A stretch of DNA of 64,000 nucleotides from a virus: positions 147,588 through 211,587 of the IMG/VR virus record IMGVR_UViG_3300042289_000986, one strand, 5' to 3'. The notes beneath the pieces were generated by a model. That model made no database searches. It was not told the origin of the DNA and saw nothing but the letters and a program-made list of their open reading frames with translations. Every line of letters starts with the position of its first letter. Within the stretch, counting starts at the first letter, position 1. Below are positions 9,234-61,092 of this stretch, one piece after another. Position numbers and translations under genes: made by a program.

Positions 9234-9235
9234 TT

Positions 9236-9760: not shown

Positions 9761-9763
9761 ACT

Positions 9764-10240: not shown

Positions 10241-10937
10241 CATGAAAGTATTAGAAAGAGGGGATTTTGGCGAAGAAGTAAAACAATGGCAATTGTTTTT
10301 ACAATCTGCTGGTTATAAGATCCCATACGTTGATGGTGCGTTTGGTCCTGAAACTGAAAGAGAAACATTAAAATTTCAAACCAAAAACGGTTTAAAGCCC
10401 GATGGTGTCGTTGGTCCTAAAACTTGGAAGTTCGTAACTACTGTCAGTAGTAATACACCACTTTCACAAAAATGGCCTAAACAAAACTATAATTCTATGG
10501 TAAATTTTTATGGACCAGTTGGCGAAAACCAAACAAAATTGGATGTTCCATATAAATTAAAAATTGCTTGGGATAAAAACGTATCTTTGAGCAAGATTAC
10601 ATGTCATCAAAAGTGTGCTAAATCTTTATATACAATATTTGAAAAAACTTTGAGCACATATGGGCAAAAAGAAATTACTCGATTAAGATTAGACATCTTT
10701 GGTGGCTGTTTAAATGTCAGAAAGATGCGTGGTGGTTCTGCATGGTCTATTCATTCTTGGGGTGCTGCTGTTGATTTAGATCCAGACAACAATCAGCTAA
10801 GATGGGGTAAAGATAAAGCATCTTTTGGTAAAAAAGAATATGAAGATTTTTGGAAAATAGTTGAATCTGAAGGCTGGATCAGTTTGGGAAGAGCCAGAAA
10901 CTACGATTGGATGCATTTTCAAGCAGCAACTCTATAA
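10230..10937 (+). CDS. Endolysin: peptidoglycan-binding domain plus M15 (VanY-like) peptidase
   Basis: 235 residues. Residues 6-66 form a PG_binding_1 domain (RGDFGEEVKQWQLFLQ ... YVDGAFGPETE ... DGVVGPKTWK). The C-terminal half is an M15 zinc peptidase with SIHSWGAAVDLD giving H175 and D182 as ligands and DWMHFQ giving H229. Such enzymes cleave peptide cross-links in the cell wall. No signal peptide is visible, so export would depend on the holin. An in-frame ATG four codons downstream is an alternative start. Confidence 0.88.
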   Translation: MTNNMKVLERGDFGEEVKQWQLFLQSAGYKIPYVDGAFGPETERETLKFQTKNGLKPDGVVGPKTWKFVTTVSSNTPLSQKWPKQNYNSMVNFYGPVGENQTKLDVPYKLKIAWDKNVSLSKITCHQKCAKSLYTIFEKTLSTYGQKEITRLRLDIFGGCLNVRKMRGGSAWSIHSWGAAVDLDPDNNQLRWGKDKASFGKKEYEDFWKIVESEGWISLGRARNYDWMHFQAATL

Positions 10938-10954
10938 TATTTTGATTATCAACA

Positions 10955-10987
10955 ACTTACAAAATTAACATTTATGTTTTTGTAAGT
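10955..10987 (+). terminator. Hairpin after the endolysin gene
   Basis: A perfect 10-bp inverted repeat, ACTTACAAAA (10955-10964) with TTTTGTAAGT (10978-10987), encloses a 13-nt loop and is followed by CTTTAATTTT. It is AT-rich and the U-tract is interrupted, so termination may be partial. Confidence 0.4.
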
Positions 10988-11014
10988 CTTTAATTTTGAA
11001 CAATTTATAAAAAA

Positions 11015-11257
11015 ATGGATTTATCAGACATATATTCTAAACAAGTTAAAAAAACATCTGTATCCATGTTACAAGTTGGTGGAAATTTTCCACAAATTGA
11101 AAAAGATCCAAACATCAGAAGATTAGAACAAGAAGTATATGCTAAAATGCGTAGCATAATGCCAAAAGAAGAACCACAACAAGCACCTAAAGACGAAGTT
11201 GTTGCACTATCATTTCAAGACGCATTAAAAGAACTTGCTGAATTTCAAAAAAAATAG
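11015..11257 (+). CDS. Hypothetical small helical protein
   Basis: 80 residues, hydrophilic, mostly helical (RRLEQEVYAKMRSIMPKEEP), no recognised family. It lies in the 336-bp interval between the endolysin hairpin and a TATAAATA late promoter, so it may be transcribed from read-through. Its end is 13 bp before the next start. Confidence 0.5.
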   Translation: MDLSDIYSKQVKKTSVSMLQVGGNFPQIEKDPNIRRLEQEVYAKMRSIMPKEEPQQAPKDEVVALSFQDALKELAEFQKK

Positions 11258-11265
11258 TATAAATA
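11258..11265 (+). promoter_or_regulatory. Late promoter, exact T4 consensus TATAAATA
   Basis: Perfect T4-type octamer, 5 nt before the ATG at 11271. A T4-like start point about 6 nt beyond the box would fall on the A of the ATG, giving a leaderless mRNA. Confidence 0.65.
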
Positions 11266-11270
11266 AACAT

Positions 11271-11642
11271 ATGAGTAAATTTTCCGAACTTTTTGAACAA
11301 ATGTATCTTCCATTACAAGGCTTAGTAAATGAACAAGAAGATATGGCAAACGAAATACCTGAAGCCCAACCAGAAGTCGGTGTAGATGCCGAAACAATGA
11401 GTGAACTTCCAATTTTATCAAATGATGAAATAGCACAATTTATTGCAGGATTAAAACAATTTTATTCTCAAGAAAATCCAGCATTAACACAAGACCAAAT
11501 TGATCAAATTAAAAATGTAAACCCAAGAGACTCTAGAGAAGATTCTGCTATCAAAGCATCGATTGATGTTTTAATGAAAATTTTTAATGTTGGTGGAGTA
11601 CAAACATCTCCATCAACTATTCCTGATTCAACGTTTGAATAA
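11271..11642 (+). CDS. Hypothetical acidic late protein
   Basis: 123 residues starting MSKFSELFEQMYLPLQGL. I use the ATG at 11271, because a TTG 12 codons upstream would place the late promoter box inside the gene. The sequence is Glu/Gln-rich, with a region NDEIAQFIAGLKQFYSQENP and a Ser/Thr/Pro-rich tail. The N-terminus resembles that of the late protein at 47023-47544 (MSKFNKFNTLLETAF), so it may be a minor virion or prohead component (inference). Confidence 0.55.
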   Translation: MSKFSELFEQMYLPLQGLVNEQEDMANEIPEAQPEVGVDAETMSELPILSNDEIAQFIAGLKQFYSQENPALTQDQIDQIKNVNPRDSREDSAIKASIDVLMKIFNVGGVQTSPSTIPDSTFE

Positions 11643-11681
11643 AAATTTGATTTATTCTAATATACTAGTAATATAGTATAC

Positions 11682-11975
11682 ATGAATAACGTAAGTTTTA
11701 ATTTAAAGTCTTTAACCAAAGAAGAAGTATCAACAATTTTAGAATCTTTATTGTTCAGTTCTTCTGTTGATGTTTGTGCTAGTTGGTATAAAGAAGATTC
11801 TTTAAACATGTTTAATTTAGCAAAAAAAATTCGAAATATTTTTCCAGAAATTTTAATTGATAATGTTTATATTATCGAAGATAAACAAAACAATTTTGAA
11901 CTTAATGATAAACATACGAAAAAAATTGTAGAATTTTTTCCTGAAATCAAAAAAGAAAAAATAGAAAATTTATGA
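11682..11975 (+). CDS. Hypothetical protein upstream of ATPase
   Basis: 97 residues, no recognised family. The N-terminus (VSFNLKSLTKEEVSTILESL) and the middle (KIRNIFPEILIDNVYIIED) look like a small alpha/beta domain. It overlaps the following NadR-like gene by 4 bp (ATGA), suggesting coupled translation and linked function. Upstream sequence at 11647-11677 is promoter-like but the spacing of the boxes is poor. Confidence 0.55.
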   Translation: MNNVSFNLKSLTKEEVSTILESLLFSSSVDVCASWYKEDSLNMFNLAKKIRNIFPEILIDNVYIIEDKQNNFELNDKHTKKIVEFFPEIKKEKIENL

Positions 11976-12616
11976 AAATTGCAGTAATTGGAACAGCTAA
12001 CATAGGAAAGTCAACTTATATAAAAGACTTTTTAAAAAAATGGCCAATGTATAAATTGGTCGATAGCGAATATCGAAAACTTTTAAAAGAAAAAAATCTT
12101 TCTCATAGCAAAGATGGAAATGAAGAAAGTCAAAGAATCATTCTAAATTGTTTAGTTGATGAAGTAGTCAAGTATTCAAAAGATGAATTTGCTATTTTCG
12201 ATAGATGTGTTGTTGATGTATTGGCATATTCAACTTGGTTGCATTTAAATGGGAAAATTTCTGAAAAGTTTTTAGATGAACAAAGAATTTTAATTCGAGA
12301 GACTTTAAAATTATATGATGTTTTATTTTTTATACCTTTAACTAAAGTTGCTCCAGTAGAAATAGAAGATAATGGAATTAGAGAAACCGATCCAGTTTAT
12401 CGTGAAGAAATAGATACAATATTCAAAGCATTTCAAGAATCTTATCATCGTGGTGATGGTAGAGTTTTTCCAAAAGATGATTGTCCAGCAATCATTGAAA
12501 TATTCGGAAATCCAGAACAAAGATTGAAAATGACAGAGCTTTATCTGACACAAGAAGGTAAATGCTATGGAGAAGAAGAAAGTTTAATCTCTGATATTAT
12601 CCCTGCTAAATTTTAA
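11972..12616 (+). CDS. NadR/AAA_28-type P-loop ATPase or kinase
   Basis: 214 residues. Walker A is GTANIGKST (7-15), followed by KLVDSEYRKLL and a conserved FDRCVVDVLAYSTW block typical of NadR-like/AAA_28 nucleotide kinases. The DPVYREEIDTIFKAF region and a DDCP segment fit the lid and base-recognition parts. In bacteria NadR phosphorylates nicotinamide riboside, but many phage members have unknown substrates. The assignment to the kinase-like P-loop family is firm; the substrate is open. Confidence 0.7.
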   Translation: MKIAVIGTANIGKSTYIKDFLKKWPMYKLVDSEYRKLLKEKNLSHSKDGNEESQRIILNCLVDEVVKYSKDEFAIFDRCVVDVLAYSTWLHLNGKISEKFLDEQRILIRETLKLYDVLFFIPLTKVAPVEIEDNGIRETDPVYREEIDTIFKAFQESYHRGDGRVFPKDDCPAIIEIFGNPEQRLKMTELYLTQEGKCYGEEESLISDIIPAKF

Positions 12617-26543: not shown

Positions 26544-26573
26544 ATAGTATATTTTAATATAAATAAAAATCAA
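26544..26573 (-). promoter_or_regulatory. Weak sigma-70-like promoter for the GT9-GT2 pair
   Basis: On the minus strand TTGATT (26568-26573), 18 bp, TACTAT (26544-26549). The -35 overlaps the stop of the upstream fibre gene. Confidence 0.35.
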
Positions 26574-27472
26574 TAAGGACTATTGGATACTCTTGTAATA
26601 AGCATATATGGTTGAGTACCAAAATTATTATTAAATACTGGATACCCTTGATTACCGTTTCCGCCGTTTGCACCGCCATGTAAAACTGTTACCGCATAAA
26701 AAGTTTGTGGTGATAAAAGTACACTAATAGAACCTCTTTGAGAAGATTCTCCATTTCCTGTTGTATCCGTAAATCCTTGCGCTATATTTCCAATTAAAGT
26801 TGCAAGATTTACGTTTGATGTATTAATAAATTGATTGTTTTGATATAAACGAAGTCTCATAAAATCTGTTGGATCTGTCATATCATACGAAGCATATCTT
26901 ATTTCAATATTATATAAACCACCTTCAGTAACAGTAAAATTTGTATGTGTTCCAGTGTTGTTTCCAGTTTCTAAAACAGGAGATATATAAAACGTCAGAG
27001 GAGTATTAAAAGAAATTACATTTTCTAAATTATACAACCATCGATTCCATCGAATAACGTTTTCAATTCCATTTGTTGTGTTTGATAATCCATTATTTAA
27101 ATTTATATCAAATCTTAAATAACAAGGATTAACTGAACCAGAAGGACCAGTTGGTCCAGTTGGTCCTATTGGCCCTCCTGATGGACCAGTTGGTCCAGTT
27201 GGTCCTATTGGCCCTCCTGATGGACCAGTTGGACCTGTAACCCCTGTTGGTCCTGTGTTTCCAAAACCTGTAGCTCCAGTTGGTCCCGTTGGTCCAGTTA
27301 CTCCTGTATTTCCAGAACCCGTAGCTCCAGTTGGACCAGTTGATCCTGTGTTTCCTGTAGCACCAATTGCACCCAAATTTGGGATATCAGAAGTTTCTAT
27401 TACATTAATAGAACGAACCGTAGCATCTTTGGGTTCTATATGCTTTCCATAAATGTTAAATTCCAATGCCAT
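26570..27472 (-). CDS. Collagen-like fibre with C1q-like tip
   Basis: 300 residues: a 35-residue N-terminus, collagen-like triplets (about 36-115, including three [13 protein letters not shown] units from near-perfect DNA repeats at 27145-27225), and a C-terminal beta domain beginning [17 protein letters not shown]. The C-terminal domain is paralogous to that of 27686-28381: both have IRYASYD, a middle QRG strand and a final [14 protein letters not shown]-like block. Probably a trimeric receptor-binding tip. Confidence 0.7.
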
Positions 27473-47561: not shown

Positions 47562-47604
47562 TCAAAATAAGCCCAAAACCATAAAAGATTTAACAGATTT
47601 TGAA

Positions 47605-47612
47605 CATAAGTA
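47605..47612 (+). promoter_or_regulatory. Candidate late promoter CATAAGTA for gene 25
   Basis: Ends 8 nt before the GTG at 47621. It also decides the start: the upstream TTG at 47600 would lie before the promoter. Confidence 0.55.
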
Positions 47613-47620
47613 TTTATGCC

Positions 47621-48127
47621 GTGGCAAAAGTAGATTTAAATAACTTAATTAGACCAAAACAACAAAACAATCCTTCTACAGTATTGTCTAAAAAAGTAGA
47701 AGTAGTTGGTTCGGTTTATACAGATTTACATTTAGACTTACAATTTAGTAAAAGCATAGGATTAGGAAATTCACCAGCAAATTCTAACGATATTATGGTC
47801 GATACCGATGAAGAAGCAATCAAAAATTCTATTAGAAACATTTTTTCAATTAGAAAGGGTGATAAACTTTTAAATCCTGATTTTGGTTCTTCTTTGGAAC
47901 AATATCTTTTTGAACCAGTTTCTGAAGTATATGCCAGAGCAATTGCAGACGATATACTGAATACTTTAGAGACATATGAACCTAGAATCGAAGTAACAAA
48001 AGTTACAATTGTTCCTAAACATGATGATAATCAATATGAAACATATGTAAAATATAGATTTTTAGAAATAAAAAAAGAAAGTATTTTAAGTATTATTGCC
48101 AAAAGAGGAGGAGAAATCTTAATATAA
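47621..48127 (+). CDS. 25: gp25-like baseplate wedge protein (GTG start)
   Basis: 168 residues from a GTG (MAKVDLNNLIRPKQQ). The family core is clear: AIKNSIRNIFSIRKGDKLLN, then PDFGSSLEQYLFEPV (T4: IKNSLLGIITTRKGSRPFDP then EFGCDLSDQLFENM), and TYEPRIEVTKVTIVP. T4 gp25 is 132 residues; here the N-terminus is about 35 longer. gp25 anchors the sheath start to the baseplate. It heads the 25-6 block in the same order as T4. Confidence 0.9.
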   Translation: MAKVDLNNLIRPKQQNNPSTVLSKKVEVVGSVYTDLHLDLQFSKSIGLGNSPANSNDIMVDTDEEAIKNSIRNIFSIRKGDKLLNPDFGSSLEQYLFEPVSEVYARAIADDILNTLETYEPRIEVTKVTIVPKHDDNQYETYVKYRFLEIKKESILSIIAKRGGEILI

Positions 48128-48140
48128 GATAATTATTACA

Positions 48141-49946
48141 ATGACAAACGACTATTTAAACAATAATAACTCATATATCAGTTTTGATGCAACCAGTATT
48201 AGAGATTTAATAGTTAACAGATTAAATCAAAGTGAAATCTTTACCGATCAAAATTATCAAGGATCGAACATGTCTGCTTTCTTGGATGTAATAGGTTTTA
48301 GTTTTAGTACTCTGCTTTATTATTTAAATAAAACTGCTTCTGAAACTTTATATTCCGAAACTCAAATATATGAAAATATTAATAGATTAGTAAAAATTTT
48401 AAATTATAATCCTATAGGTAGAATTGGACAAAATGTTCCTTTCAAATTAACGGCTGGAGAAAATTTAAATATTGGAAACTATGTTATCCCAAGATTCAGT
48501 TATTTAAGCGTTGGAGGAACAAATTTTTCTTTTAATCGTGATATTCAAATTTATAAACCAACAGTTGGTAACGTATCAATTGATGAAGTTTCTAACAAAT
48601 ATCTTTTATATCAAGGATTATTTCAAGAGTATCCGACTTATACGGCTATTGGAATTGAAAATGAAGTCATGTATCTTTCTTTTCTTGAATCTGTTTATAT
48701 TGATCATTTTAACATTTATGTTTTTGTAAAAGAAAAAAATAATAACCGCTGGCAAGAATGGGAAAGAGTTCCTGAAACTTTCTTATATGGATCTAATGAA
48801 AACGTTTATCAAATAAGATTAAACGAAAATAAAAGATATGAAATAAAATTTGGAGATAATATTAATGGTAAAAAATTAAAAGAAGGTGATGAGGTAGCTG
48901 TTTATTTTTTAAATGTTGATCCCGAAGCTTCAAATATTGGACCTAATTCTTTTGGAAAATCTAAAATTGTTCAATACAATTCAATAAGATTTGAACAAAT
49001 ATATAATAATATTAAAAATAATATTTTAGGAGAAGTTCTAACTTCAGAAAATTTACAGTATTTATCTTTAGATAACGACTATCCCTCAACTTTTTACACC
49101 GACGAAGAATCTGTTGATTCTATTCGTTCAAATGCAGCAAAAAATTTCAGATCACAATATAGATTAGTAACATCTTTAGATTATGAAACTTATATTAAAA
49201 CGAATTATTCAAGCCTTTTAGCTGATGTTAAAGTTTTAAATAATGAAGATTATTTAAGAACTCATATCAAATATTTGTATAATATTGGTTTAAATCAACC
49301 ACAAAAAGATGATAAAATTTTGATAAATCAAATTAAATTTGCTGATAGTTGTAACTTTAATAATTTATATGTTTACACAGTTCCAAAAAGTGAACTTCAA
49401 AATTATTTAGCACCATCTCAAAAAGAAGTTATCATTAATGGTTTACAAAGTAGCAAAACTTTGACATCAGAAATTGTACCAATGGACCCTATTTATATCT
49501 ATGTAGATTTTTATGTTAACAGTCCATTTACTTCTCCTAGTCCAAATGATTTAGCAGAAAACTATTTGGTTATTACCAAAACCCCAAACAGTAGAAGAGC
49601 CAATTCAGCAATTCTTTCTGATATTGAAAATTTAATTAAACAAACCTTTAATAGAAAAACTAATAAACTTGGAGAATTAATTGATATATATCAATTGTCT
49701 ACAAGCATTCTTAATATTGAAAGCGTAGATAGAGTTCAGACATATAGGGCCGATATAGATGCTTATACAGAAGGAGTTTCTCTATTACTTTGGAATTATT
49801 ATTACCCATTAGCAGATTCACAAGTTTATACTCAAAACGTAGAGTTGGAATTTTTTCAATATCCAATTTTTAACAATATTGAAAATGTTTCTTCAAGAAT
49901 AAAAATAAATGAACCAACGGGAACAATCAAAGTTGCTGATTTTTAA
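48141..49946 (+). CDS. 6: gp6-like baseplate wedge protein
   Basis: 601 residues (T4 gp6 660). It starts with the usual FDATSIRDLIVNRLNQSEIF and FLDVIGFSFSTLLYYLNKTA, then ETQIYENINRLVKILNYNPI, the most conserved part of the J-like wedge protein, and includes RSNAAKNFRSQYRLVTSLDY. gp6 dimers form the inner baseplate ring with gp25 and gp53. It is 13 bp after gene 25. Confidence 0.9.
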   Translation: MTNDYLNNNNSYISFDATSIRDLIVNRLNQSEIFTDQNYQGSNMSAFLDVIGFSFSTLLYYLNKTASETLYSETQIYENINRLVKILNYNPIGRIGQNVPFKLTAGENLNIGNYVIPRFSYLSVGGTNFSFNRDIQIYKPTVGNVSIDEVSNKYLLYQGLFQEYPTYTAIGIENEVMYLSFLESVYIDHFNIYVFVKEKNNNRWQEWERVPETFLYGSNENVYQIRLNENKRYEIKFGDNINGKKLKEGDEVAVYFLNVDPEASNIGPNSFGKSKIVQYNSIRFEQIYNNIKNNILGEVLTSENLQYLSLDNDYPSTFYTDEESVDSIRSNAAKNFRSQYRLVTSLDYETYIKTNYSSLLADVKVLNNEDYLRTHIKYLYNIGLNQPQKDDKILINQIKFADSCNFNNLYVYTVPKSELQNYLAPSQKEVIINGLQSSKTLTSEIVPMDPIYIYVDFYVNSPFTSPSPNDLAENYLVITKTPNSRRANSAILSDIENLIKQTFNRKTNKLGELIDIYQLSTSILNIESVDRVQTYRADIDAYTEGVSLLLWNYYYPLADSQVYTQNVELEFFQYPIFNNIENVSSRIKINEPTGTIKVADF

Positions 49947-49952
49947 TAAAAT

Positions 49953-52900
49953 ATGGAGGAAGAAAAATTTATAGTATATCCAAATAAAGGATATGTAGAT
50001 ATTACTAATTTTAGTTTTAATGTTGATGGTTTATCAGCATATAACTACACAAAATATCTTTGGGATTTTGGTGACGGTGTTCGTTCTAGAGAAAAAAATC
50101 CAACGCATGTTTTTGTTACTCCCAGTTCATTTGAAGTAACTTTAAATGCTTATTATGGCATAAGCTCTTATGATGTTTATACAAAAAATATAAATGTTGA
50201 TCTATATCTTAATAATTCAATTTACTTTGATTATGTTCCACCTCCAACTTTTGCAGGACATTTAAATAGATATCCTTTTAAAATAAACATAACTTCACCC
50301 GATTTAGATCCGCATGTTATAGATTTATACGCAAATTTTTCTCGATCATATTCTCCACAAGACCCAACAAACAAATGGACATTTTTAAGACCCCAATGGA
50401 GATTTATTGATAAAAACGGAAAACAAATTTCACAAATTATTACTGAAGATACCGTTATAAAAGTCGATGAAAATGGAAAAATAAATCCAAATGGAATTGT
50501 TGCAGGAGTAACTGGAACTGCCGAATTTTATTTTGTAGATGATATCTATAATTTTGATTTAGCAATAAAGGGACAACCACACACATCGATCATTGCAACT
50601 TTGGCGACTAGTGCTACTAAATCTTTTGGTGATCCTAAAAATTTAAGCCCAAATATTCCAAGCTATAGCAATAGTTTAGCTCAAGTAATATTACCTTATA
50701 TTGTTTTGTGGAGAACACCAGACCAGTTAAGAATTACAGAAAATGGTATAAGAGAACATAGTAACCCACGTTGGGTGAACTCAAAAATACCATTGATTAT
50801 AAATCCAAATTTTAAATCTTTGGAGTATCCCGATTTACTGAGTGATGGAAATGGCGTCAAATTGTGGCAACCTGATTCATTTTTTACTGAATATCTTCCT
50901 TTTGACAATACTAGTTCTATTCCTTTAAGCGTTGGGTTTCAAAATTTAAGTTCATATATATCACCACAACCTTTAGAATTTAAATATGTGGATGATACAA
51001 CATATAAAGTAGCAGGATATTATAAAGGAACGATGGTAGTAAAATCTACTGCATTAAACGAAACCTTAAGTGCAGCTATTAATTTTAATATTCCAGAACT
51101 TTCTGGTAACTATTTTAATCCTTTAATTTGGATACCAAACCAAGCAGCAGGTACTATGAACGTGGTCCAATACATCAAAAATCCACACACGGGTAAATTG
51201 TTTTTCAATAGTAATGCAGCAAAAAATCAAAATAAAGCAATAGTTAAAAGTTTTGAAGTACCAATTTGTTTCGATCCTGACTACACAACAGACGTAATGG
51301 CAATTACAGGCAGTCACGGAATTAATTGTATAGCAGCACTACCTCTTCCATGTTATCATGCATGGGCAATCGATTCAGATTTAAATAAACTGTATAGATT
51401 TTCTTCAAATGGAAATACATTGTGTTCTATAGATTTAAGAACAATTTTAGGAAATGCTTCAAGTAAATTTGTTTCTCCTGCTTTTTGTGTTTTAGATGGA
51501 GAACAAAATTTGTGGGTTACTTTGTACGACACAACATCAACTTTAAAGTTAGATAGTCAAGGAAAATTAATATTTGGCGTTTCTCCATTAACTAGTTTTT
51601 ATCATTTAACTTCACACAATAACAAATATCTTTTTGATAGTCAATTTTATCCCATAACAGCAAACAACGGTTCACAAATTCAGAATTTTATTAACCCAAC
51701 AGGAATAGATACAGATTTGAATAATAATGCATGGGTTACATATTCAAATCCATTTAGTAGCTATGTGTGCAAGATATCATCTAATGGAGTAACTCTTTCA
51801 ACAATACAATATCCATTATATTCTTCTCCTACAGAAATATTGTGTGATAATCAAAATAATGTTTGGATCGCTTTAACAAATCAAATTTACAGAGAAAAAA
51901 GTTACTTGGAAAAAAGAAACACCAATGGTGTTTTATTAAGTACGTTTGGACCTTTTAAATTCATAAATCATTTGACCTTAGATAATTATCAGAATATCTG
52001 GTTTACTCACAGCTATCAATATATTGGATCAATTGTTAACAATGTTGTATCTTCTTACAAGATACCAATGGAAGGAATTTATGCAAATATTCCTGATTGG
52101 GTTGATACTAAAAATTTTATATTTCAAACATCATCCACCAATTACTTGCTTTGGAGTAACACACTATCAAGTAACTATTGGAGTAAAAATAATGTATTAG
52201 CTTTAGAAAATGCTGGAATAGCTCCCAACAACACACCAACAGCCGAATATATTTTAGAAGATAAAAATAATCTTTCTCAGTATTTTATTTTTAATAGTAC
52301 GGGTGCTCAAATCTCTGGCCAACAAACTGCATCTGTATATGTCAAACCCGACACACGCCAATATATACAATTAAGTTTATCAAGTCCTAACAGTTCAAAT
52401 TATGCCAGAACTATTTTCTACGTTCCATCTGCGGGATCTCCATCTTTAACAAGTTTATCAGGAACTGCGGGGATTGATCTTTCGGGTAATTGGTATCGTT
52501 GTTACATTACAGGAACAACTACAGAACTACAAAACGTATTTACTATCAATCTTCATAATGGTGTTTCAAGCAATTATATCGGAACTTCAAGTTCATTTGC
52601 ACCATTTTTGTGTGCAGTATATAACAATAAACCATCAAGCGAATTTAGTCCATTAAGTAATACAGCATTTTCTGGTTTTGATGTTGGTTTATTTGATCCT
52701 GCTGCTGCTAGTGCATTGTCAGCATTTAGTTTGAATGGGTTATATATTTGGGGAACTCAGTTAGAATTAGGATCGCAACCCACACAACAACTAGAAACAC
52801 TATCTACAATCAAAGGACAAAATGCTATAACATTTGAAGTTATAGGAAATATAGATGAAACCGCACTAAAGGGAATAGCTTTTAATGGAAACAAATATCT

Positions 52901-53993
52901 TTATATTTTAAATTCTTTTGAAAATAAAGTTGTTGTTTTTAATACCATTAATAAAAACATTGAAGATACTTTTTATGTAAACCCCAAAGGATTTAATTTT
53001 TATCCTGATGATAAAAATGAAATAACAATAAGAGACATTACACAAATTTTACAACCAATTGTTAGCATTAGTCCTCCTACAAAAGTAGAATATCATCCTT
53101 GGGTAAACTCAATAATGGCAACAGGAGATTGGACAAGTTGGAAATGGTCAAACAAATATCGAAATATATCAACTTTAAATAAAACCATCTCTGGGGTTTC
53201 TCGACATTTAGACTTTTATGATAAAAATCCGTATGAAATCTTTAAAAGAAATGAAGATCACGATTTTTCTGAACAAATGAGATCCGTAACATTTGTTGAA
53301 AGTTTGAAAAATAGTCAATTTTTATATAATAAATTTTTAAAAGCAATTTTTGGAAAAGATTTACACGATGATTTGGGTGTACTTTCTTATGAAAAAGTAG
53401 CCAATTTTATTAAAAACCAAGCAGATATTGATGAGTGTGATATAAACGCATTATATAACTTGGCAGCATCCGTTGATTTAGATTCTGATGACTTTCGTTT
53501 GAATTATCCATTTTTTATTAAAAGATTGATGGATATCTTTAGTATTAATAAATCAATTCTTTGGGGAGATAAAGATAAAAGTGCTTATAACTTTTCTGAT
53601 GGTGGTAACTATGGAATTTTAAATAGAGGAAATAAAATTGATATCAACGGTTCAATTTATGCTGGAACTCCAGTTTTATTAAAAACAAAATCTCTTCAAA
53701 AATATAACCTCATACAAACTGGAAATATCAACGGAAATTCTTTTTATGATATTAACATATTAGCCGATTTCTTAAAATTAGGAGAAGATTGGGGTTCTTA
53801 TTATGAATTTTACGAATATATCCCTACAACATCGAATGAACAAGTCGAGGGTGTTATTGATTGGGATAATCCAAACACCACTTTACAATATTATAATTCT
53901 TCTAGTGAATTTTGGTTTGGCGATGAAAAAGCGATGGAGACATCGTTTGCTTATGAATTATACAAAGGATTAAAATTGTTAGAGTCTTCTTGA
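49953..53993 (+). CDS. Giant baseplate/tail protein with PKD, propeller-like and CBM-like segments
   Basis: 1346 residues, at the gene 7 position after gp6. Residues about 10-75 are a PKD-like Ig domain (YLWDFGDGVRSREKNPTHVF). Residues about 440-700 contain repeated NNAWVTYSN, NNVWIALTN and QNIWFTHSY strands, typical of an NHL-like propeller. About 725-985 hold a carbohydrate-binding-type beta domain (LWSNTLSSNYWSKNN, SGNWYRCYIT). The last 250 (EQMRSVTFVESLKNS onward) are helical and probably bind the wedge. Role is inferred; no direct match to T4 gp7. Confidence 0.65.
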   Translation: MEEEKFIVYPNKGYVDITNFSFNVDGLSAYNYTKYLWDFGDGVRSREKNPTHVFVTPSSFEVTLNAYYGISSYDVYTKNINVDLYLNNSIYFDYVPPPTFAGHLNRYPFKINITSPDLDPHVIDLYANFSRSYSPQDPTNKWTFLRPQWRFIDKNGKQISQIITEDTVIKVDENGKINPNGIVAGVTGTAEFYFVDDIYNFDLAIKGQPHTSIIATLATSATKSFGDPKNLSPNIPSYSNSLAQVILPYIVLWRTPDQLRITENGIREHSNPRWVNSKIPLIINPNFKSLEYPDLLSDGNGVKLWQPDSFFTEYLPFDNTSSIPLSVGFQNLSSYISPQPLEFKYVDDTTYKVAGYYKGTMVVKSTALNETLSAAINFNIPELSGNYFNPLIWIPNQAAGTMNVVQYIKNPHTGKLFFNSNAAKNQNKAIVKSFEVPICFDPDYTTDVMAITGSHGINCIAALPLPCYHAWAIDSDLNKLYRFSSNGNTLCSIDLRTILGNASSKFVSPAFCVLDGEQNLWVTLYDTTSTLKLDSQGKLIFGVSPLTSFYHLTSHNNKYLFDSQFYPITANNGSQIQNFINPTGIDTDLNNNAWVTYSNPFSSYVCKISSNGVTLSTIQYPLYSSPTEILCDNQNNVWIALTNQIYREKSYLEKRNTNGVLLSTFGPFKFINHLTLDNYQNIWFTHSYQYIGSIVNNVVSSYKIPMEGIYANIPDWVDTKNFIFQTSSTNYLLWSNTLSSNYWSKNNVLALENAGIAPNNTPTAEYILEDKNNLSQYFIFNSTGAQISGQQTASVYVKPDTRQYIQLSLSSPNSSNYARTIFYVPSAGSPSLTSLSGTAGIDLSGNWYRCYITGTTTELQNVFTINLHNGVSSNYIGTSSSFAPFLCAVYNNKPSSEFSPLSNTAFSGFDVGLFDPAAASALSAFSLNGLYIWGTQLELGSQPTQQLETLSTIKGQNAITFEVIGNIDETALKGIAFNGNKYLYILNSFENKVVVFNTINKNIEDTFYVNPKGFNFYPDDKNEITIRDITQILQPIVSISPPTKVEYHPWVNSIMATGDWTSWKWSNKYRNISTLNKTISGVSRHLDFYDKNPYEIFKRNEDHDFSEQMRSVTFVESLKNSQFLYNKFLKAIFGKDLHDDLGVLSYEKVANFIKNQADIDECDINALYNLAASVDLDSDDFRLNYPFFIKRLMDIFSINKSILWGDKDKSAYNFSDGGNYGILNRGNKIDINGSIYAGTPVLLKTKSLQKYNLIQTGNINGNSFYDINILADFLKLGEDWGSYYEFYEYIPTTSNEQVEGVIDWDNPNTTLQYYNSSSEFWFGDEKAMETSFAYELYKGLKLLESS

Positions 53994-54008
53994 AACTAGG
54001 TTTTTTAA

Positions 54009-54016
54009 TCTAAATA
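54009..54016 (+). promoter_or_regulatory. Candidate late promoter TCTAAATA
   Basis: Ends 12 nt before the ATG at 54029. Confidence 0.4.
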
Positions 54017-54028
54017 TATAAGATAAAC

Positions 54029-57000
54029 ATGGCTGACTCATTTAGCATAACCCATACAGGCAATTGGCCTAATGAAACATATCAAATTGTTCCAAACTAT
54101 GATGCTATTAGCCCAGATTTTGGGTATGTCATTTTTCAAAATAATTTTAAATATTTTAACACGCCAATTAAAAGCGTTGACTCTAGATTATTAACAAATG
54201 TTTTTAGTTACAAGAACACTGTCACGGCACTAGGTCCCAAAAACAATCCTTTAGAAAATAATCAGTTAGAAGAAGATTATTATCAAATGTCAGTTTTTAA
54301 TAATACTTTTTTCACGTTTTCTCCATCTGCATTAAGATTGATAGATGCTGGTCCTACATTTAATTATTTTCAAATTGATTTAGATAACCCAGAAGGTTTT
54401 ACAGAATTTCATTCTTATATATTATACCCTTTTTCTTTATATCTAAGGCCAATTAGTGCTAAAAAAATTAATGATAATAGTTTTGAATTTGTAACATCAG
54501 CCGTATTATTAAGTGCTCAATCATTTTATTATTTAACAACCACTGGTGATGTCGATGCTTATATCAACCACTTAAATTATAAACCAAAATATAGAAATTT
54601 ACCAACCAATATTAATTTAAATTACAGCATAAGTGGGTTTGAATTTTATGCTGATAGACAACTTCCACAAATATATTCTTCTCAAATTTATAATTTTGAT
54701 AGGAATGCAATGCTTTTAAACAATCCAGTAAACATAAGACCAGATTATACATCTTTTAATTTTGATGTTATATATCCTCCATTTACTTTTCAAGCAGGGT
54801 TTCCAGAAGAACAACAATATGCTGGAATAGCTCAAGAAAATCCAGAAAATTATCGATATGTCAACGGTTTTACTTCTGCTTACATTTCTCGTTATGATCC
54901 TAGAATTTCTTCAATAGAAACATTTCAATTAGTGCAAAGCTCTTTAAATGAGCTTTCTCTTGATAATATTTCTAATTGTATATTAAGGTGTGAATTAAAT
55001 GTTTCTAATTCTAATTTAAAAACTTTTATATACAAATATAGAAATAATATAGGTAATTCAATTCCATTGGTTTCGGCTGTAACAAATACAAATTTGGGTA
55101 TTCGATATGCTGCTGATTACGGTAGAATTTTAAACACATCGGTACATTCTAATATTTTTTCATTTAAAGTAGGGACAGAATTTCAAAATGTTCAATCTTT
55201 AAGTGGTTTTAAAATTGCTTCTAACGTGCAAAATTTTGATACCGCTGTTTGGAATTTAAAATATCCACCACATTATTATTCATATAAAACATATTTTGAT
55301 GCAAATTCTTTAGGCTTTAATAAAAACAGTGATACGTCTTATTTAAATTTTTATTTATCAAGTCAGATTATTTCAGAAGATGATTTAAATTGTGTTTTTA
55401 AAAATGTATTAACGACAGATTTTAATACACTGGTTTTGGATTTAACATCCTATGCTACAAAAGATTCAATTAAATTTACTCCTATAAATGTCAATTTTGC
55501 CTCAAGAGATATTTCTTTATTTAGAGTTGTTTTATCTTCAATAACTGCACAATATAGTCCAGATAATGTTAACTTTTTTGATTATAATTTAAACTCTACA
55601 CCTTGGATAAATGCAGCATCCGCGCAATTTTTCAAAATTTATTATAATAAACAATATGGAGAAATGGATTTTGTATTAAATCCATGTTTAAGCACATCAA
55701 TTGGTACAAACATTGATTCAAAATATAATATCAAGAAAGATTTCGCTAAAGGATCTATACAAACCATAGATACTGATTTATTTTTAACAGTATTGGATGA
55801 AAAAGAAAATCAAATTGATTTGACAGTAAAATCAATAACATCCATGAATGAATTTCCTTTTAGAGATTTAACAAATACAGTTATAAGCTGGAATGTTAGC
55901 CCATCTTCAAATTTAGTATCAATTAATGCTATTGACTCTGATGGAAAATTTCTTCAAAAAATAACACCGAACCAACCTGTATCGTTTGATTTTAATACCT
56001 ACACTGTACGTGTATCTGGTTATGCAAAGGACACTACAACGATTACGTTTTCTTCACAATTTTGGGGATTATTTGATAGTATCCAAACAAACCAATCACT
56101 TTTTAACATATACAAAAATAAAAAATTTCAAATTGGATTGTTGAATCCAGTTTTTAATAATTTCGATACTAAACAATTTAGATTGACAGCTTTTTTGGAA
56201 TATGAAGGTCAAAAATTTGATATTCCAAAAACATTTAATGATGAAGATGTTTACATGTATTGGACTTGGAAGCATGATGAAGATTTTGATGATAGATTTA
56301 TTCCAGTAAATGTTTATGATAAAAATTTAACCGCACAATATCAATATGGTCAATCGGGACTAGCAACAGTTTTAAGTTCCATTTATGTTGAAGTTAAAAA
56401 CAAGTATGACATGGATCTTATTTCGGACCCATCTACTCCTTTTTCTCACGAAATAACATTTTATTTGTTTTCTAATATTTCTGTGCCGCCTGTATCGGGA
56501 CAGTTTTCTTTAACATTAGATGCATATCCAGCAAAAAGTGTTTTTAATACTGATTTTAGAACAACTTATAACGGATTTCCTAATGTTACTGTATCAGATA
56601 CAAGAAATAATCAATATGTTATTACAAGACCAGATAGTGATAATAACAATTTTGTATTTTTTGCCAATACTGATATTTTACCAACTTTAAGTGCTCAAAG
56701 TTTTGCTTGGTTAGCTTCGAGTGATAATGGGACGTTATCCGCTTTATCATCCACAAAATTTTCAGATATTTCGGCTTTTAGATATAGAATATCAAATCCA
56801 AACATTAAAGTAACTACCATAACATTATCAGCTATAAAAGCATTAATACCAAATTGGACAGAAAGATTTGATACACAAACTAAAATCACCATTTATACAG
56901 AACCTTCTGCTATATTTTTTGATCCTTTAAAATTTACAATCTATCCTCCTTTTATGTGGGGTCTTAGTGGTAGATATGTGAAACTCTTACAAGACAATGA

Positions 57001-60000
57001 TTATACATTAGCTGCGAATCCGACAGCCTATGCAAATACTATTTCTGAAACTCATGGGTTTTACATATCTGCCAATAAAGTTTATTTTGATAGTTATAAA
57101 GTTTATTCTGGTAATGATTTAACATACGTCGATACTATTACATCAAAATTTGAATATGTAGAAATACCGTTTAGAACCGAATTTTTCCAAAATACGGGAT
57201 TAAGAATAACTTTAGCAAGTTTTGGTGAAAAATATCCAGAATATAATGGTTTTACATACCAAACATTATCAGGAAGTAGTATTGTAACTTTACCATTTAA
57301 TAATTTTGCTTTTACTATTCCCTTTAGTTCTACAGTACCAGTTTCAGCAAAATTTACACAATCTCCAAAATTAAAACAATACGATACACTTTATTTGACG
57401 TTTAGTTCAACCATCACATCAATTGATATTGATGAAAATAGAATTATTACGGTTGATCAATTTTTTACTGGAGAGGGGGGAAAACCTCTTTCTGGATTTC
57501 CAACACAAAATCTTCAAGAAATTTTATCAGGCAATGTAATAGTTTATACTCTTTCTTCTCCAACATGGAAAGTAAATCAATTTATTCCAGCCCTACAAGG
57601 AAGATATCAATTATTTATTTTGGCTGTTGGAGATCCTGCACAACCTCTTAATATTAGCAAATACAAATATAATAGTTTAAATTTATCTGCATCGGGAAAC
57701 ATGCCAGTATGGATACCACCATCTACATTTGATTTGTATCCAGTAACACCATTAACCGCAAATTGCATAGCATATTGGAATTTTAATGAAGTAAGCGGTA
57801 ATCGAATTGATTCAACTGGAAATGGCTACAATCTAATGTTGTCGTCTATCCCATCTATAAGCTCACTACCACTAACTAGTATTGGTTTTATTGGATCTCG
57901 ATCTCTTTCAGCTTCTGTTACTGGTGTGTTTTTACAAACAACAGGAATAAATTTTGAAGGAGATTGGTCAATTTCATATTGGCAAAAATTAAATGTTCCC
58001 GAATCAGAAGTAGAAAGAGTAGATAATTTTATTACAAAATCTTCGGAAGGAAATAGTATTAATCCATTAAGTGGAATTATGATTACAACATCTCCAATGA
58101 TGATTTATGAAAATTATCCTCTTTATGAGCAAGCAGCAATTTATAACGGACCTTATCCAGAACCTTATAAATGGAATCATATTGTTTTTTCGGCCAAAAA
58201 TAAATTGTTGAGCGTTTGGATCAATAGTGTTAAGGTTGTAGATGAATTATTTTTATCTGATGCTTTGTTAGATTATATGTCAATTTCTAACAATTACCCA
58301 TTTAGAATTAATGGCCAAAATCGTTCTGTAGAAATAGACGAAATGGGTATTTGGTATAGAGCATTGGAAGGTCCCGATATATATGCTTTATATAACTATA
58401 AATTAACCTATCCGTTTCCTTACACTTTACCAGAAGCATATATTGAAGAGAGACAATTGTGGAAAGTTATAAACCAACCAGTAACTGCTAATCCACTAAC
58501 ATTAGTTGCATATAGTACAAGCGTTATACCAGAAGTTTATGTTTCGACATATTTTGCTTTAACAGGACAAGAAATTTTTATTCAATTTGAAACACCTGAA
58601 AATAATCAAAATCTTTATATTACATCTTATCGTACAAATTTTGGAGATCTTTCAACTTCTGAATTTGATCAACCGAATGAAATTGGATCAAATATTGAAT
58701 ATTCTGACATCAACGATACGGTAAGACACAGTTATAAAGAACCAGGCATCTATAATCTTTCATTTGATGTAATTTATAATACGGGAGAAATTAAAAAGTT
58801 TAACTTAGAATCTCCAATTACAATTTATACAGAATGGCCAAACTACGATCAACAAAAAATAAGATTTTTAAATGAAACAGTTTTAAATTTTGGTGATGAA
58901 TTAGAAAATACATATACATTAGATCAAATAGACATTCAACCTAATGAGTTTGGGGATGTTGATATATTTAATACCAGTATAACAAGATTGTATAATAACT
59001 TTGAATATTTAAAATTCAATTCACAAACAATTAATACAAATTCTCCAACCTTATTTTATGGTTGGTTAGGAACCGAAGAAAACAATACTGCAAGAGGTAT
59101 TCAGTGGAACACAAAAGATTATGGATTTTTCGAATGGGATAAACCATATTTGGCATCACTTAGAGTTACTTTTAATGAAAATTTAAATAATGTTGAATAC
59201 AACAAAAAATTCTTTTCAAATATTATTTGTGTTTCGGAAACAAAAGACCACTTATTAGTTATTGATGGAACAGAATTTAGAGCTTTTTCTTCTGGAAAAA
59301 TTCCGCAAGAAAGATTTTTTGAAAATATTGAAGATATACGTCCACTAATTCCAAGTCCAGTTAGTATTGATTCTTTTACAGATTCAGACAACTCTTCTTA
59401 TGTTTATGTTGCGGATAATGTTAGAAATAGAATCTATAAATTTAATTTAGATTTTTCTTTTGTTCCACAAATTAATGTTCAATTAGTTGTTGGAAACTTT
59501 GGAAAAAGAGAGGAACCTAATAAATTTAATGCACCTTCAAAAATAATTTATGCTAATGATTTTGTTTATGTTCTTGATTATAATAATCAATGCGTAAAAC
59601 AATTTACTTCTGACTTAAATTGGACTTTTACATATTTTGACGATGCTTTTGATAACGAACAACCCGAAGCTTTAGCAGTCCACCCAAACATTGAAATATC
59701 ATTTTTATATGTTTTGACAAACCAAAGAAGAGTATTTATTTTTGATCAGTTTAATACTGTACCGTTTCAAATTATAGATTTACCAGAAACTTTTGATTCA
59801 CAAGAATTAATGGAAATTAGTTTTGATGAAGCAGGAGAATTTTTCTATGTTTTAACAAGAAAAAATATATACAAATATACTATAAGTGGAACTTTTATCG
59901 GAGATGTTGACATACCAAACAGTAGTGAATTAAATTATAACTATATCAAACAATCACAATTCCACTCTATGTTGATATGTTCTGATAGATGTATTTTAAA

Positions 60001-60637
60001 AATACAGGATTTAATTCAACTATATAGAATCGGTGATGGATTAGAACAACGCTATTGGTCACTAGATCAGCTTCTTTTAAATAGAAATGAATTTGCAGAT
60101 GATACAAATTATAATCGCTGCATGATTCGTTTAGTGCAAAACATTAAAAACTTTAGAAATATTTTTAATTCTAAATTTGTCGTTGCAACTGAACAACTTC
60201 CATCAGGAACCGTTTCTTATTTTACATTAGTTCCAATTTCTACTGACGAACTTCCTAGTTTTTCTAATGATATCGAAAATGAAAATATTGGAGTGGGGGT
60301 AAATGAACTTCACGTTCCACCTGTATTAAATAGAGAATTCAAAAAAATATACGAATCTTTGGATATTTTAAGAGAATATCTCACAGTTTCAGATATTCGA
60401 ATTCAATCGGGACTTAATAAAGGATGTTTTTCTCCTTTCTGTTGGTCGTGGAGAGCAATGTCTTGTTACAATTTAAGTTTACCCGTTATTCGAATTTGCA
60501 ATATTAACCCAATTACATACATCGAACTAGAAAAAGATTTTCCTGTTAAATATGCACCAACAACTATATGGGGAGAAGCATCAGCTTCTTGTTGCAAGGA
60601 TTTTAATCAAATAGCAAATCCTTTATATCAAGAATAA
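54029..60637 (+). CDS. Giant multidomain baseplate/tail protein with LamG, PKD and propeller-like parts
   Basis: 2202 residues. Up to about 1240 it is beta-rich with no clear domain calls. Residues 1244-1457 form a LamG-like lectin domain (CIAYWNFNEVSGNRIDSTGN, WSISYWQKLN, VEIDEMGIWYRAL). A PKD-like part follows near 1530-1600 (YRTNFGDLSTSEFDQPNEIG, KEPGIYNLSFDVIYNTGEI). Residues 1790-1995 look like an NHL propeller (YVYVADNVRNRIYKFNLDFS, FVYVLDYNNQCVKQFTSDLN). The Cys-containing C-terminus resembles a wedge-attachment part. It occupies the gene 8 position but is far larger. Confidence 0.65.
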   Translation: MADSFSITHTGNWPNETYQIVPNYDAISPDFGYVIFQNNFKYFNTPIKSVDSRLLTNVFSYKNTVTALGPKNNPLENNQLEEDYYQMSVFNNTFFTFSPSALRLIDAGPTFNYFQIDLDNPEGFTEFHSYILYPFSLYLRPISAKKINDNSFEFVTSAVLLSAQSFYYLTTTGDVDAYINHLNYKPKYRNLPTNINLNYSISGFEFYADRQLPQIYSSQIYNFDRNAMLLNNPVNIRPDYTSFNFDVIYPPFTFQAGFPEEQQYAGIAQENPENYRYVNGFTSAYISRYDPRISSIETFQLVQSSLNELSLDNISNCILRCELNVSNSNLKTFIYKYRNNIGNSIPLVSAVTNTNLGIRYAADYGRILNTSVHSNIFSFKVGTEFQNVQSLSGFKIASNVQNFDTAVWNLKYPPHYYSYKTYFDANSLGFNKNSDTSYLNFYLSSQIISEDDLNCVFKNVLTTDFNTLVLDLTSYATKDSIKFTPINVNFASRDISLFRVVLSSITAQYSPDNVNFFDYNLNSTPWINAASAQFFKIYYNKQYGEMDFVLNPCLSTSIGTNIDSKYNIKKDFAKGSIQTIDTDLFLTVLDEKENQIDLTVKSITSMNEFPFRDLTNTVISWNVSPSSNLVSINAIDSDGKFLQKITPNQPVSFDFNTYTVRVSGYAKDTTTITFSSQFWGLFDSIQTNQSLFNIYKNKKFQIGLLNPVFNNFDTKQFRLTAFLEYEGQKFDIPKTFNDEDVYMYWTWKHDEDFDDRFIPVNVYDKNLTAQYQYGQSGLATVLSSIYVEVKNKYDMDLISDPSTPFSHEITFYLFSNISVPPVSGQFSLTLDAYPAKSVFNTDFRTTYNGFPNVTVSDTRNNQYVITRPDSDNNNFVFFANTDILPTLSAQSFAWLASSDNGTLSALSSTKFSDISAFRYRISNPNIKVTTITLSAIKALIPNWTERFDTQTKITIYTEPSAIFFDPLKFTIYPPFMWGLSGRYVKLLQDNDYTLAANPTAYANTISETHGFYISANKVYFDSYKVYSGNDLTYVDTITSKFEYVEIPFRTEFFQNTGLRITLASFGEKYPEYNGFTYQTLSGSSIVTLPFNNFAFTIPFSSTVPVSAKFTQSPKLKQYDTLYLTFSSTITSIDIDENRIITVDQFFTGEGGKPLSGFPTQNLQEILSGNVIVYTLSSPTWKVNQFIPALQGRYQLFILAVGDPAQPLNISKYKYNSLNLSASGNMPVWIPPSTFDLYPVTPLTANCIAYWNFNEVSGNRIDSTGNGYNLMLSSIPSISSLPLTSIGFIGSRSLSASVTGVFLQTTGINFEGDWSISYWQKLNVPESEVERVDNFITKSSEGNSINPLSGIMITTSPMMIYENYPLYEQAAIYNGPYPEPYKWNHIVFSAKNKLLSVWINSVKVVDELFLSDALLDYMSISNNYPFRINGQNRSVEIDEMGIWYRALEGPDIYALYNYKLTYPFPYTLPEAYIEERQLWKVINQPVTANPLTLVAYSTSVIPEVYVSTYFALTGQEIFIQFETPENNQNLYITSYRTNFGDLSTSEFDQPNEIGSNIEYSDINDTVRHSYKEPGIYNLSFDVIYNTGEIKKFNLESPITIYTEWPNYDQQKIRFLNETVLNFGDELENTYTLDQIDIQPNEFGDVDIFNTSITRLYNNFEYLKFNSQTINTNSPTLFYGWLGTEENNTARGIQWNTKDYGFFEWDKPYLASLRVTFNENLNNVEYNKKFFSNIICVSETKDHLLVIDGTEFRAFSSGKIPQERFFENIEDIRPLIPSPVSIDSFTDSDNSSYVYVADNVRNRIYKFNLDFSFVPQINVQLVVGNFGKREEPNKFNAPSKIIYANDFVYVLDYNNQCVKQFTSDLNWTFTYFDDAFDNEQPEALAVHPNIEISFLYVLTNQRRVFIFDQFNTVPFQIIDLPETFDSQELMEISFDEAGEFFYVLTRKNIYKYTISGTFIGDVDIPNSSELNYNYIKQSQFHSMLICSDRCILKIQDLIQLYRIGDGLEQRYWSLDQLLLNRNEFADDTNYNRCMIRLVQNIKNFRNIFNSKFVVATEQLPSGTVSYFTLVPISTDELPSFSNDIENENIGVGVNELHVPPVLNREFKKIYESLDILREYLTVSDIRIQSGLNKGCFSPFCWSWRAMSCYNLSLPVIRICNINPITYIELEKDFPVKYAPTTIWGEASASCCKDFNQIANPLYQE

Positions 60638-60681: not shown

Positions 60682-61092
60682 ATGAATAGGTTTCATTCTA
60701 AATTTCATAGAAAAAATCATCACACAAACACAGATCCTTATAATCCAGACGCAGGACATGACCCTATAGCAAGTCCAGATGCTCCTTTTCAAGGTATTTT
60801 CTGTGTTAATGGTAATTTGAGTTCAAGTGGAGGTTTGACTGTTAGCGGATTTAATATTTCGAGGGGTTATAGAACAGTGGGATTTACTACCCTTGTAGCA
60901 GGTTCTTCCGCTTTGGTAACCACAACAGCAATTCAAGCTAGTTCGATTGTTCTGTTAACCCCACAAACTTCATCTGTAAATATTGGAACACCATTTATCA
61001 GAACAAGAATACCATCAGTTAGCTTTACAATATCATCTACACATGCAAATGATAGAAGTACGATTGGTTGGTTTATCTTACAAACACAATAA
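60682..61092 (+). CDS. Small fibre-tip-like structural protein
   Basis: 136 residues. A short His/Lys/Asn-rich N-terminus is followed by GIFCVNGNLSSSGGLTVSG, then a beta domain of the pattern TTLVAGSSALVTTTAIQASS, VLLTPQTSSVNIGTPFI and PSVSFTISSTHANDRSTIGW, widely seen as the C-terminal tip of phage fibres and capsid decoration proteins. Here it stands almost alone, so it may be a separate subunit. It is 13 bp before the giant fibre gene. Confidence 0.65.
   Translation: MNRFHSKFHRKNHHTNTDPYNPDAGHDPIASPDAPFQGIFCVNGNLSSSGGLTVSGFNISRGYRTVGFTTLVAGSSALVTTTAIQASSIVLLTPQTSSVNIGTPFIRTRIPSVSFTISSTHANDRSTIGWFILQTQ

Follow-up and report, generated by a model that had tools for sequence, protein, structure and literature searches.

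An exchangeable-module protein in the gp7 position of the baseplate gene cluster of an uncultured giant T4-like phage

The window analysed here comprises the rightmost 64,000 nucleotides of a record of 211,587 bases (IMGVR_UViG_3300042289_000986) from an uncultured giant phage of the T4-like type. Its tail cluster resumes at the left end of the record, because the contig was broken inside a tail-fibre gene. The genes considered are as follows:

47600..48127, + strand: gp25-like baseplate wedge / sheath initiator gene, 175 aa
48141..49946, + strand: gp6-like baseplate wedge gene, 601 aa (phrog_219 'baseplate wedge subunit', 2.9e-31)
49953..53993, + strand: g1, proposed gp7-equivalent wedge protein, 1346 aa
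54029..60637, + strand: g2, baseplate-associated tail protein, 2202 aa

The 175-aa reading frame matches PF04965 (GPW_gp25, 2.2e-14) and phrog_261 (1.2e-31), while the gp6-like protein aligns with T4 gp6 in blastp (4e-8) and finds matches in 486 phage records by tblastn at 20-27% identity, T4-like cyanophages among them. The initial annotation was right that proteins of 1346 and 2202 residues follow these two genes, as exact open reading frames on the + strand. Both are real genes, given that copies on other contigs are identical or 94-97% identical and that dN/dS between close relatives is low (0.07-0.13 for g1, 0.08 for g2), and both are under strong purifying selection. g1 is single-copy in the genome.

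In g1 an Ig/PKD domain is followed by an NHL-type propeller and then by a conserved C-terminal domain, with one plug-in set into the propeller:

50013..50165, + strand: PKD / Ig-like domain, aa 21-71 (PF18911, 5.5e-7)
51300..52106, + strand: first stretch of the NHL/SMP-30-type propeller, approximate limits aa 450-718
52107..52847, + strand: plug-in, GTA head-spike-fibre domain between propeller blades, about aa 719-965
52848..53000, + strand: propeller, last part, about aa 966-1016
53040..53990, + strand: conserved C-terminal domain, proposed gp6-binding core, aa 1030-1346 (34-sequence alignment)
53391..53531, + strand: segment resembling P2 gpI / Tail_P2_I, about aa 1147-1193

Profile comparison with the PDB relates the first domain to the PKD of collagenase ColH (2.3e-14) and the propeller to the Pizza6/PknD NHL propellers (4e-9 to 1e-4), with a further Reg_prop match at 0.005. 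The part that had been described as carbohydrate-binding in type does exist, but is the curated head-spike-fibre domain NF048003 (GTA_spike_fiber, aa 725-946, 3.3e-19), whose curated cut-off of 36 it exceeds with 70.1 bits; it also matches the tail protein family phrog_5939 (3.8e-12) and the end of the RcapMu tail fibre (2e-8). In RcGTA this domain sits on the head, whereas in g1 it lies inside a protein in wedge position. The propeller restarts directly after it, and this last part is kept in all relatives. An AlphaFold2 model of residues 1030-1346 is of low confidence (pLDDT 58) and retrieved nothing significant from the PDB with Foldseek. Searched by tblastn against 50,697 phage records, the C-terminal regions of g1 and g2 gave no match and whole g1 matched through its spike plug-in region only.

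The second protein joins two halves around a LamG domain:

54029..57745, + strand: g2 N-terminal half, conserved, aa 1-1239
57746..58438, + strand: LamG plug-in where the two halves meet, about aa 1240-1470
58466..60634, + strand: C-terminal module of g2, a PKD/Ig-like domain, a helix, an NHL propeller and a conserved helical and Cys/Trp-rich C-terminus, aa 1480-2202
59219..60025, + strand: NHL propeller of g2, about aa 1731-1999

The N-terminal half matches no Pfam or other database entry and is a separate gene of ~1230-1290 aa in L073, L080, L085, L090, L098 and other relatives; g2 is thus a fusion of two proteins that separate genes encode in nine loci. The C-terminal module was modelled by AlphaFold2 at pLDDT 78 and pTM 0.73, and its propeller is recognised both by profile (PDB NHL, 4e-7) and by Foldseek (TRIM71 NHL, 1.5e-12, target TM-score 0.72). 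The PKD and propeller parts announced in the initial annotation are thereby borne out, the former in g1 and the latter in both proteins. The LamG call is sub-threshold in g2 itself (PF13385, 1.9e-4, 22.0 bits against a cut-off of 27.6) and unambiguous in the homologous plug-ins of relatives (up to 3e-26, 92.9 bits).

The position of g1 is constant. The order gp25-gp6-g1 was found in 56 of 56 sequences with a complete g1. In all relatives with readable downstream DNA g1 comes straight after gp6, even in genomes whose further downstream content is entirely different, and the order is kept in L051 and L064, where the downstream genes lie on the opposite strand. Recoded stops, considered as the cause of missing downstream reading frames in some relatives, proved a wrong explanation: these frames run along the opposite strand. 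Without plug-ins the core of g1 measures ~1030-1125 aa and is 40-60% identical among relatives. T4 gp7 (1032 aa) likewise follows gp6 directly and carries its gp6-binding region in the C-terminal third, and the P2 order W-J-I parallels 25-6-g1. The claim that g1 occupies the gp7 slot holds in every readable relative.

Neither in sequence nor in fold does g1 show a significant link to T4 gp7. The profiles phrog_17744 and phrog_964 and a gp7 alignment gave no significant match to g1 in HMMER, Pfam and PHROG scans or in hhalign; the Pfam domains Gp7_helical, Gp7_5th and Gp7_6th, all detected in T4 gp7, are absent from g1, and Gp7_helical is absent genome-wide. A comparison of g1 with a six-member T4 gp7 alignment in hhalign, full length as well as C-terminal, came back empty. 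It counts for little, since the control comparison of gp7 with gpI, an accepted homologous pair, was likewise empty. A candidate segment in g1 resembles P2 gpI of the Tail_P2_I family, with which XM1 gp17 and TssG are grouped here: PF09684 (Tail_P2_I) matches at approximately the corresponding site in two relatives with E-values of 0.005 and 0.011, its best score of 12.6 bits being below the cut-off of 20.6, and gives no match in the analysed phage's own g1. The two matches are not independent, the genes being homologous. In hhalign, P2 gpI 26-70 aligns with a stretch of g1 that overlaps the Pfam matches (45 aligned columns, 31% identical; E 0.16); a scan with P2 gpI collected near-identical copies only, too shallow for a good profile. 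In contrast to g1, P2 gpI and XM1 gp17 are proteins of 176-242 aa with neither propeller nor plug-ins.

The front of g1 may also have a parallel in gp7, for which an fn3-type N-terminus (0.0019) and a BNR match (0.039) were obtained, and the 575-aa N-terminal part of the T4-like gp7 of KPV15 matches the Ig and propeller module of g2 in Foldseek. T4 gp7 thus appears to consist of Ig, propeller and helical core, its propeller being read from one Foldseek match that is common to many WD40-type proteins. Because PKD and propeller occur in every relative of g1 and T4-type gp7 appears to begin with Ig and propeller, these parts are probably chassis. The idea that the phage had absorbed adhesin domains therefore survives for the plug-ins, which are cleanly missing in relatives, and probably not for PKD and propeller. 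T4 gp7 itself is without known binding plug-ins.

What has been absorbed is a set of interchangeable plug-ins that sit at fixed hotspots, in this phage the spike in g1 and LamG in g2. They measure 85-965 aa and enter g1 at the N-terminus, at ~330-340, ~541-555 and ~707-722, and near the C-terminus. The spike plug-in is missing from most relatives and, without a scar, from L028, where the LamG of g2 is cleanly missing as well. Spike fibre domains are found in the analysed phage (W), L005, L007, L030 and L031 (3e-19 to 5e-67, NF048003 scores in relatives reaching 225.8 bits), and LamG plug-ins, homologous to one another, in L038 and L049 (g1), in L079 (g2) and in the analysed phage (g2). Other plug-ins include a subtilase (L036), He_PIG (L064), and Ig and helical modules, one helical type being found in tail proteins of cyanophages too. 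On the tree, sister genomes differ in their plug-ins (L086/L090, L036/L040, L037/L038) by recent gain or loss, which is repeated across the tree. When the analysed phage is compared with L008, the spike domain has diverged at synonymous sites by 0.09 and its flanks by 0.29 and 0.34, as after recent exchange.

Accordingly, g1 is most likely the gp7-equivalent wedge protein of this phage, and we put at roughly 60% the fuller reading that it is a gp7-equivalent serving this lineage as a chassis for swappable surface-binding modules, which are placed in a few tolerated loops and at the N-terminus. A different account, which we consider unlikely, makes g1 and g2 baseplate-attached, fibre- or spike-like adhesins encoded beside gp6, with the true gp7-equivalent a small, unrecognised protein elsewhere. 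The failure of known gp7 models to match anything in g1 speaks for it, as do the small size that gp7-equivalents can have (242 aa for XM1 gp17; PMC10457771) and the plug-in domains, which are typical of fibres. However, selection on the ~1000-aa core is strongly purifying, and every relative has this core directly behind gp6, whether or not it carries plug-ins; g1 contains the Tail_P2_I-like segment; and fibre genes exist separately in this genome, one at the right end and fibre-like matches at 26570-27472. Homologues of gp7 and gp8 elsewhere in the genome, which would count against the wedge assignment, were sought with positive controls that matched, and no other candidate for either was found.

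About as unlikely is a purely spacing or stabilising role for the extra domains, unrelated to host binding: Ig and propeller folds often serve structural purposes and the helical plug-ins have no known ligand, but LamG and the GTA head spike are binding folds, the RcGTA head spike fibre binding capsule (PMC10218006), and sister genomes differ in their LamG and spike domains but share an unchanged core.

On the gp7 reading, two copies of gp6 would join the C-terminal domain of g1 to form a (gp6)2-gp7 wedge unit, as suggested by the order of genes and of domains, by the Tail_P2_I-like segment and by the known pairings (gp6)2-gp7, gpJ-gpI and TssF-TssG. The N-terminal Ig/PKD and propeller would protrude from the wedge rim, with the spike domain seated between two g1 propeller blades and the LamG of g2 at the junction of the ancestral proteins. 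Six wedges could then display these modules in a cell-facing ring, which would give low-affinity, many-point binding to surface polysaccharide beside the separate tail fibres. We infer that g1 would assemble into the wedge and that it may bind sugars and contribute to adsorption, so that the tail's structural core may have a share in host recognition as well; the polyvalent binding device envisaged in the initial annotation would be such a baseplate. More tentatively, and short of what we would call probable, the wedge of a large uncultured T4-like clade could be an evolvable host-recognition platform, in which a constant gp7-type chassis offers several fixed loops to adhesin cassettes (in one genome a protease) swapped by recombination, and the ring of six wedges binds glycans at many points without relying on the tail fibres. 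Should g1 be a wedge protein, the conserved core of a contractile tail would be more than a fibre holder, namely an exchange site for host-recognition modules, with a bearing on host shifts of giant phages, and its defined core and insertion sites could be tested domain by domain. The assignments also provide functional leads for long, mostly unannotated metagenome proteins.

Giant gp7-like wedges and a wedge protein bearing carbohydrate-binding modules (CBMs) are already known. The former, in cyanophages (phrog_2885, 4179 positions; SfFR1_74 of Sf-FR1, 3654 aa), directly follow gp25-gp6 as g1 does, but match the gp7 core model phrog_17744, which g1 does not, and have the gp7 core N-terminal and a recognisable gp8 next, whereas in the phage analysed here the conserved domain lies at the C-terminal end and gp8 cannot be recognised. 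The latter, Vp4 Gp119 (Herelleviridae baseplate wedge 3), resembles g1 in having inserted domains, CBMs in its case, which are missing from its close homologue in Deep-Blue, and its binding to cells was shown experimentally (PMC11406892). Gp119 is a different wedge protein with an unrelated core from a phage of a Gram-positive host, and represents one phage pair, whereas the plug-ins described here span a clade, with more than one hotspot and more than one type of domain.

The remaining proposal, that g1 is gp7 and g2 is gp8, both wedge proteins with absorbed adhesins, is improbable and its gp8 part unsupported: gp6-g1-g2 does parallel gp6-gp7-gp8, with no other gp8 found, but the gp8 model phrog_438, which like phrog_17744 matches the controls T4, Sf-FR1 and a Rhizobium phage, matches neither g2 nor the genome, one clade encodes g2 as two separate proteins, and the C-terminal module of g2 is of Ig and propeller type, to our knowledge not described for gp8. 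g2 is linked to gp6 and g1 in most loci and lies far from them in G006 and G009, the two long records of a sister clade, that of L051 and L064, in which it was found. The premise that genes 7 and 8 come after 25 and 6 in T4 does not apply to T4 itself, where gene 25 does not adjoin gene 6; the order 25-6-7-8 is found in Aeromonas phage Ah1.

The 64,000-nt window spans positions 147588-211587 of its source record, an uncultured virus of 211,587 bases, and its right end carries four genes separated by short gaps. The two giants that the initial annotation placed after the gene 25 and gene 6 equivalents are confirmed there:

47600-48127, + strand, gp25-like gene
48141-49946, + strand, gp6-like gene
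49953-53993, + strand, g1, 1346 aa
54029-60637, + strand, g2, 2202 aa

The window's gp6 shares 20-27% identity with gp6 of T4-like phages, and g1 and g2 are both under strong purifying selection. A 136-aa protein (60682-61092), whose C-terminal end is a K1-lyase C-terminal domain (PF24146, 1e-17), lies between g2 and a tail-fibre gene that runs past the contig end (61106-64000). The SSDWNTSFNRST repeat of this fibre also starts the record's left end (record positions 45-1106), so the tail cluster carries on there; the contig break falls inside one tail-fibre gene whose two parts join up, and since the contig ends continue each other, a circularly permuted and nearly complete genome is probable. 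The left-end part of the cluster encodes an RCC1-type propeller repeat protein of 1055 aa (record positions 1577-4744; phrog_7220, 1e-130) and a third giant of 1173 aa (9025-12546) with LamG (3.9e-5) and propeller-type matches, which has a look-alike in the related stretch L064.

Scans of viral metagenomes with gp6 gathered more than 300 related stretches, of which the top 80 per scan were read. In all 56 sequences with a complete g1 (56/56, the window's included) it directly follows gp6, with a core of about 1030-1125 aa at 40-60% identity to the window's g1 and extra domains added on top. One clade shows a rearrangement in which the genes after g1 give way to different tail genes that run in the opposite direction; the breakpoint lies immediately after g1 (L051:15372-21779, L064:15371-21764). 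Even there g1 still adjoins gp6, while g2 is located elsewhere (two long records where it was found). Upstream of gp25, two relatives have extra genes between a clamp-loader-like gene and a 173-aa reverse-strand gene (L024:5572-8880, L029:5124-8576), which the window lacks.

Position, strict linkage to gp6, single copy, domain order and a Tail_P2_I-like segment all argue that g1 works like gp7. A PF09684 scan of 24 genomes gave three matches, two of them sub-threshold ones at one place in the g1 C-terminal domain (E 0.005 and 0.011). hhalign produced a single alignment between the g1 C-terminal profile and P2 gpI, and it overlaps this segment (31% over 45 columns, E 0.16; DxxxC, L..LA, then P..IKR). 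It is accepted that gp7, gpI, Mup48 and TssG correspond to one another (PMC6300606); gp7 can be small, as in XM1 gp17 with 242 aa (PMC10457771). However, g1 has no significant similarity to gp7 and contains none of the Pfam gp7 domains, so that our confidence in the assignment is moderate and g1 is not counted as a proven family member. The interpretation in the initial annotation is partly supported. For g2 as gp8, sequence profiles give no support: the gp8 model phrog_438 matches neither this genome nor four relatives while matching the controls T4, Sf-FR1 and a Rhizobium phage. The gp7 core model phrog_17744 likewise matches the control phages and neither this genome nor the relatives; within the limits of sequence profiles, no gp7 or gp8 homologue was found elsewhere in the genome.

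g1 has a PKD domain (aa 21-71) near its start and a conserved domain at its C-terminal end; between them lie a conserved stretch that matches nothing in the databases and, after it, a propeller of NHL/SMP-30 type. g2 comprises a conserved 1239-aa half, also without database match, followed by a probable LamG, PKD/Ig, a helix, an NHL propeller and a C-terminus that is conserved and has an invariant FCWSW and further Cys/Trp residues; at aa 2133-2189 (within 58466-60634) these include Cys positions that are nearly invariant, with a CC at the end, in a tail that AlphaFold2 models with low confidence. The g2 C-terminal module as a whole is predicted well (pLDDT 78, pTM 0.73), and its model matches NHL propellers in a structure search. 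A match in the viral library (3e-7) is to a protein of 575 aa from Klebsiella phage KPV15, labelled "baseplate wedge initiator", whose gene lies directly after gp6 and before pieces labelled gp7; the T4 gp7 N-terminus has a sub-threshold fn3 match. We infer from these two matches that PKD and propeller are more likely a gp7-type chassis than the absorbed adhesins that the initial annotation had proposed. Nine loci have g2 divided between two genes, in most of them about 1230-1290 and 675-690 aa long, which the gp6 tree explains by one change. A separate C-terminal g2 protein in L085 (11254-14196) has an extra part of about 309 aa without Pfam match, in which a degenerate metalloprotease-like FYELGRNFW motif was seen by eye.

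The absorption proposal is supported for an exchangeable domain, or plug-in, in g1: a GTA head-spike-fibre domain at aa 725-946, which passes the curated cut-off with 3.3e-19, is placed between propeller blades and is absent without scar from L028. It is the sole part of g1 matching known phages (RcapMu tail fibre end, RcWaterboi minor tail protein); in L005 and L007 the domain occurs twice, with the additional copy at aa ~541-555. In other relatives the g1 N-terminus bears an Ig domain (He_PIG), LamG, an extra PKD or a subtilase, and the site at aa ~330-340 has either LamG or a helical module of 640 aa. Helical modules of 320 aa and 965 aa sit at ~707-722 and near the C-terminus, respectively; the helical module occurs also in cyanophage tail proteins. 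The probable LamG in the window's g2 has homologues among the plug-ins of relatives, namely in g1 (L038, L049) and in g2 (L079), so one cassette type occurs in both giants. The subtilase (L036:11777-16783; PF00082, 1.8e-8) is fused to the g1 N-terminus, looks sedolisin-like by eye with a GTSAAAP serine motif, and is missing from the sister genome L040.

On the gp6 tree, the helical module requires at least four changes, LamG in g1 two and the spike domain two, and a whole plug-in differs within the sister pairs L086/L090, L036/L040 and L037/L038. Between the window and L008, synonymous divergence is 0.09 in the spike domain, a third of that in its flanks (0.29 and 0.34), as expected after recent exchange. 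Against L004, synonymous divergence along g1 is mosaic (0.11, 0.16, 0.33), a sign of recombination within the gene.

The best-supported picture is a constant wedge chassis whose tolerated insertion points hold exchangeable surface-binding domains, each of which the six wedges would display as a ring. The spike domain points to polysaccharide as the likely target, given that capsule is bound by the head spike fibre of RcGTA (PMC10218006). There are two precedents. The wedge protein Gp119 of Vp4 contains inserted CBMs and binds cells, which its CBM-free homologue in Deep-Blue does not do (PMC11406892), and in cyanophages gp7-like proteins reach giant size (phrog_2885, 4179 positions; Sf-FR1, 3654 aa). 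Unlike in these, plug-ins here turn over clade-wide at several hotspots, a GTA head-spike domain resides in a wedge-position protein, and the conserved domain of g1 sits C-terminally.
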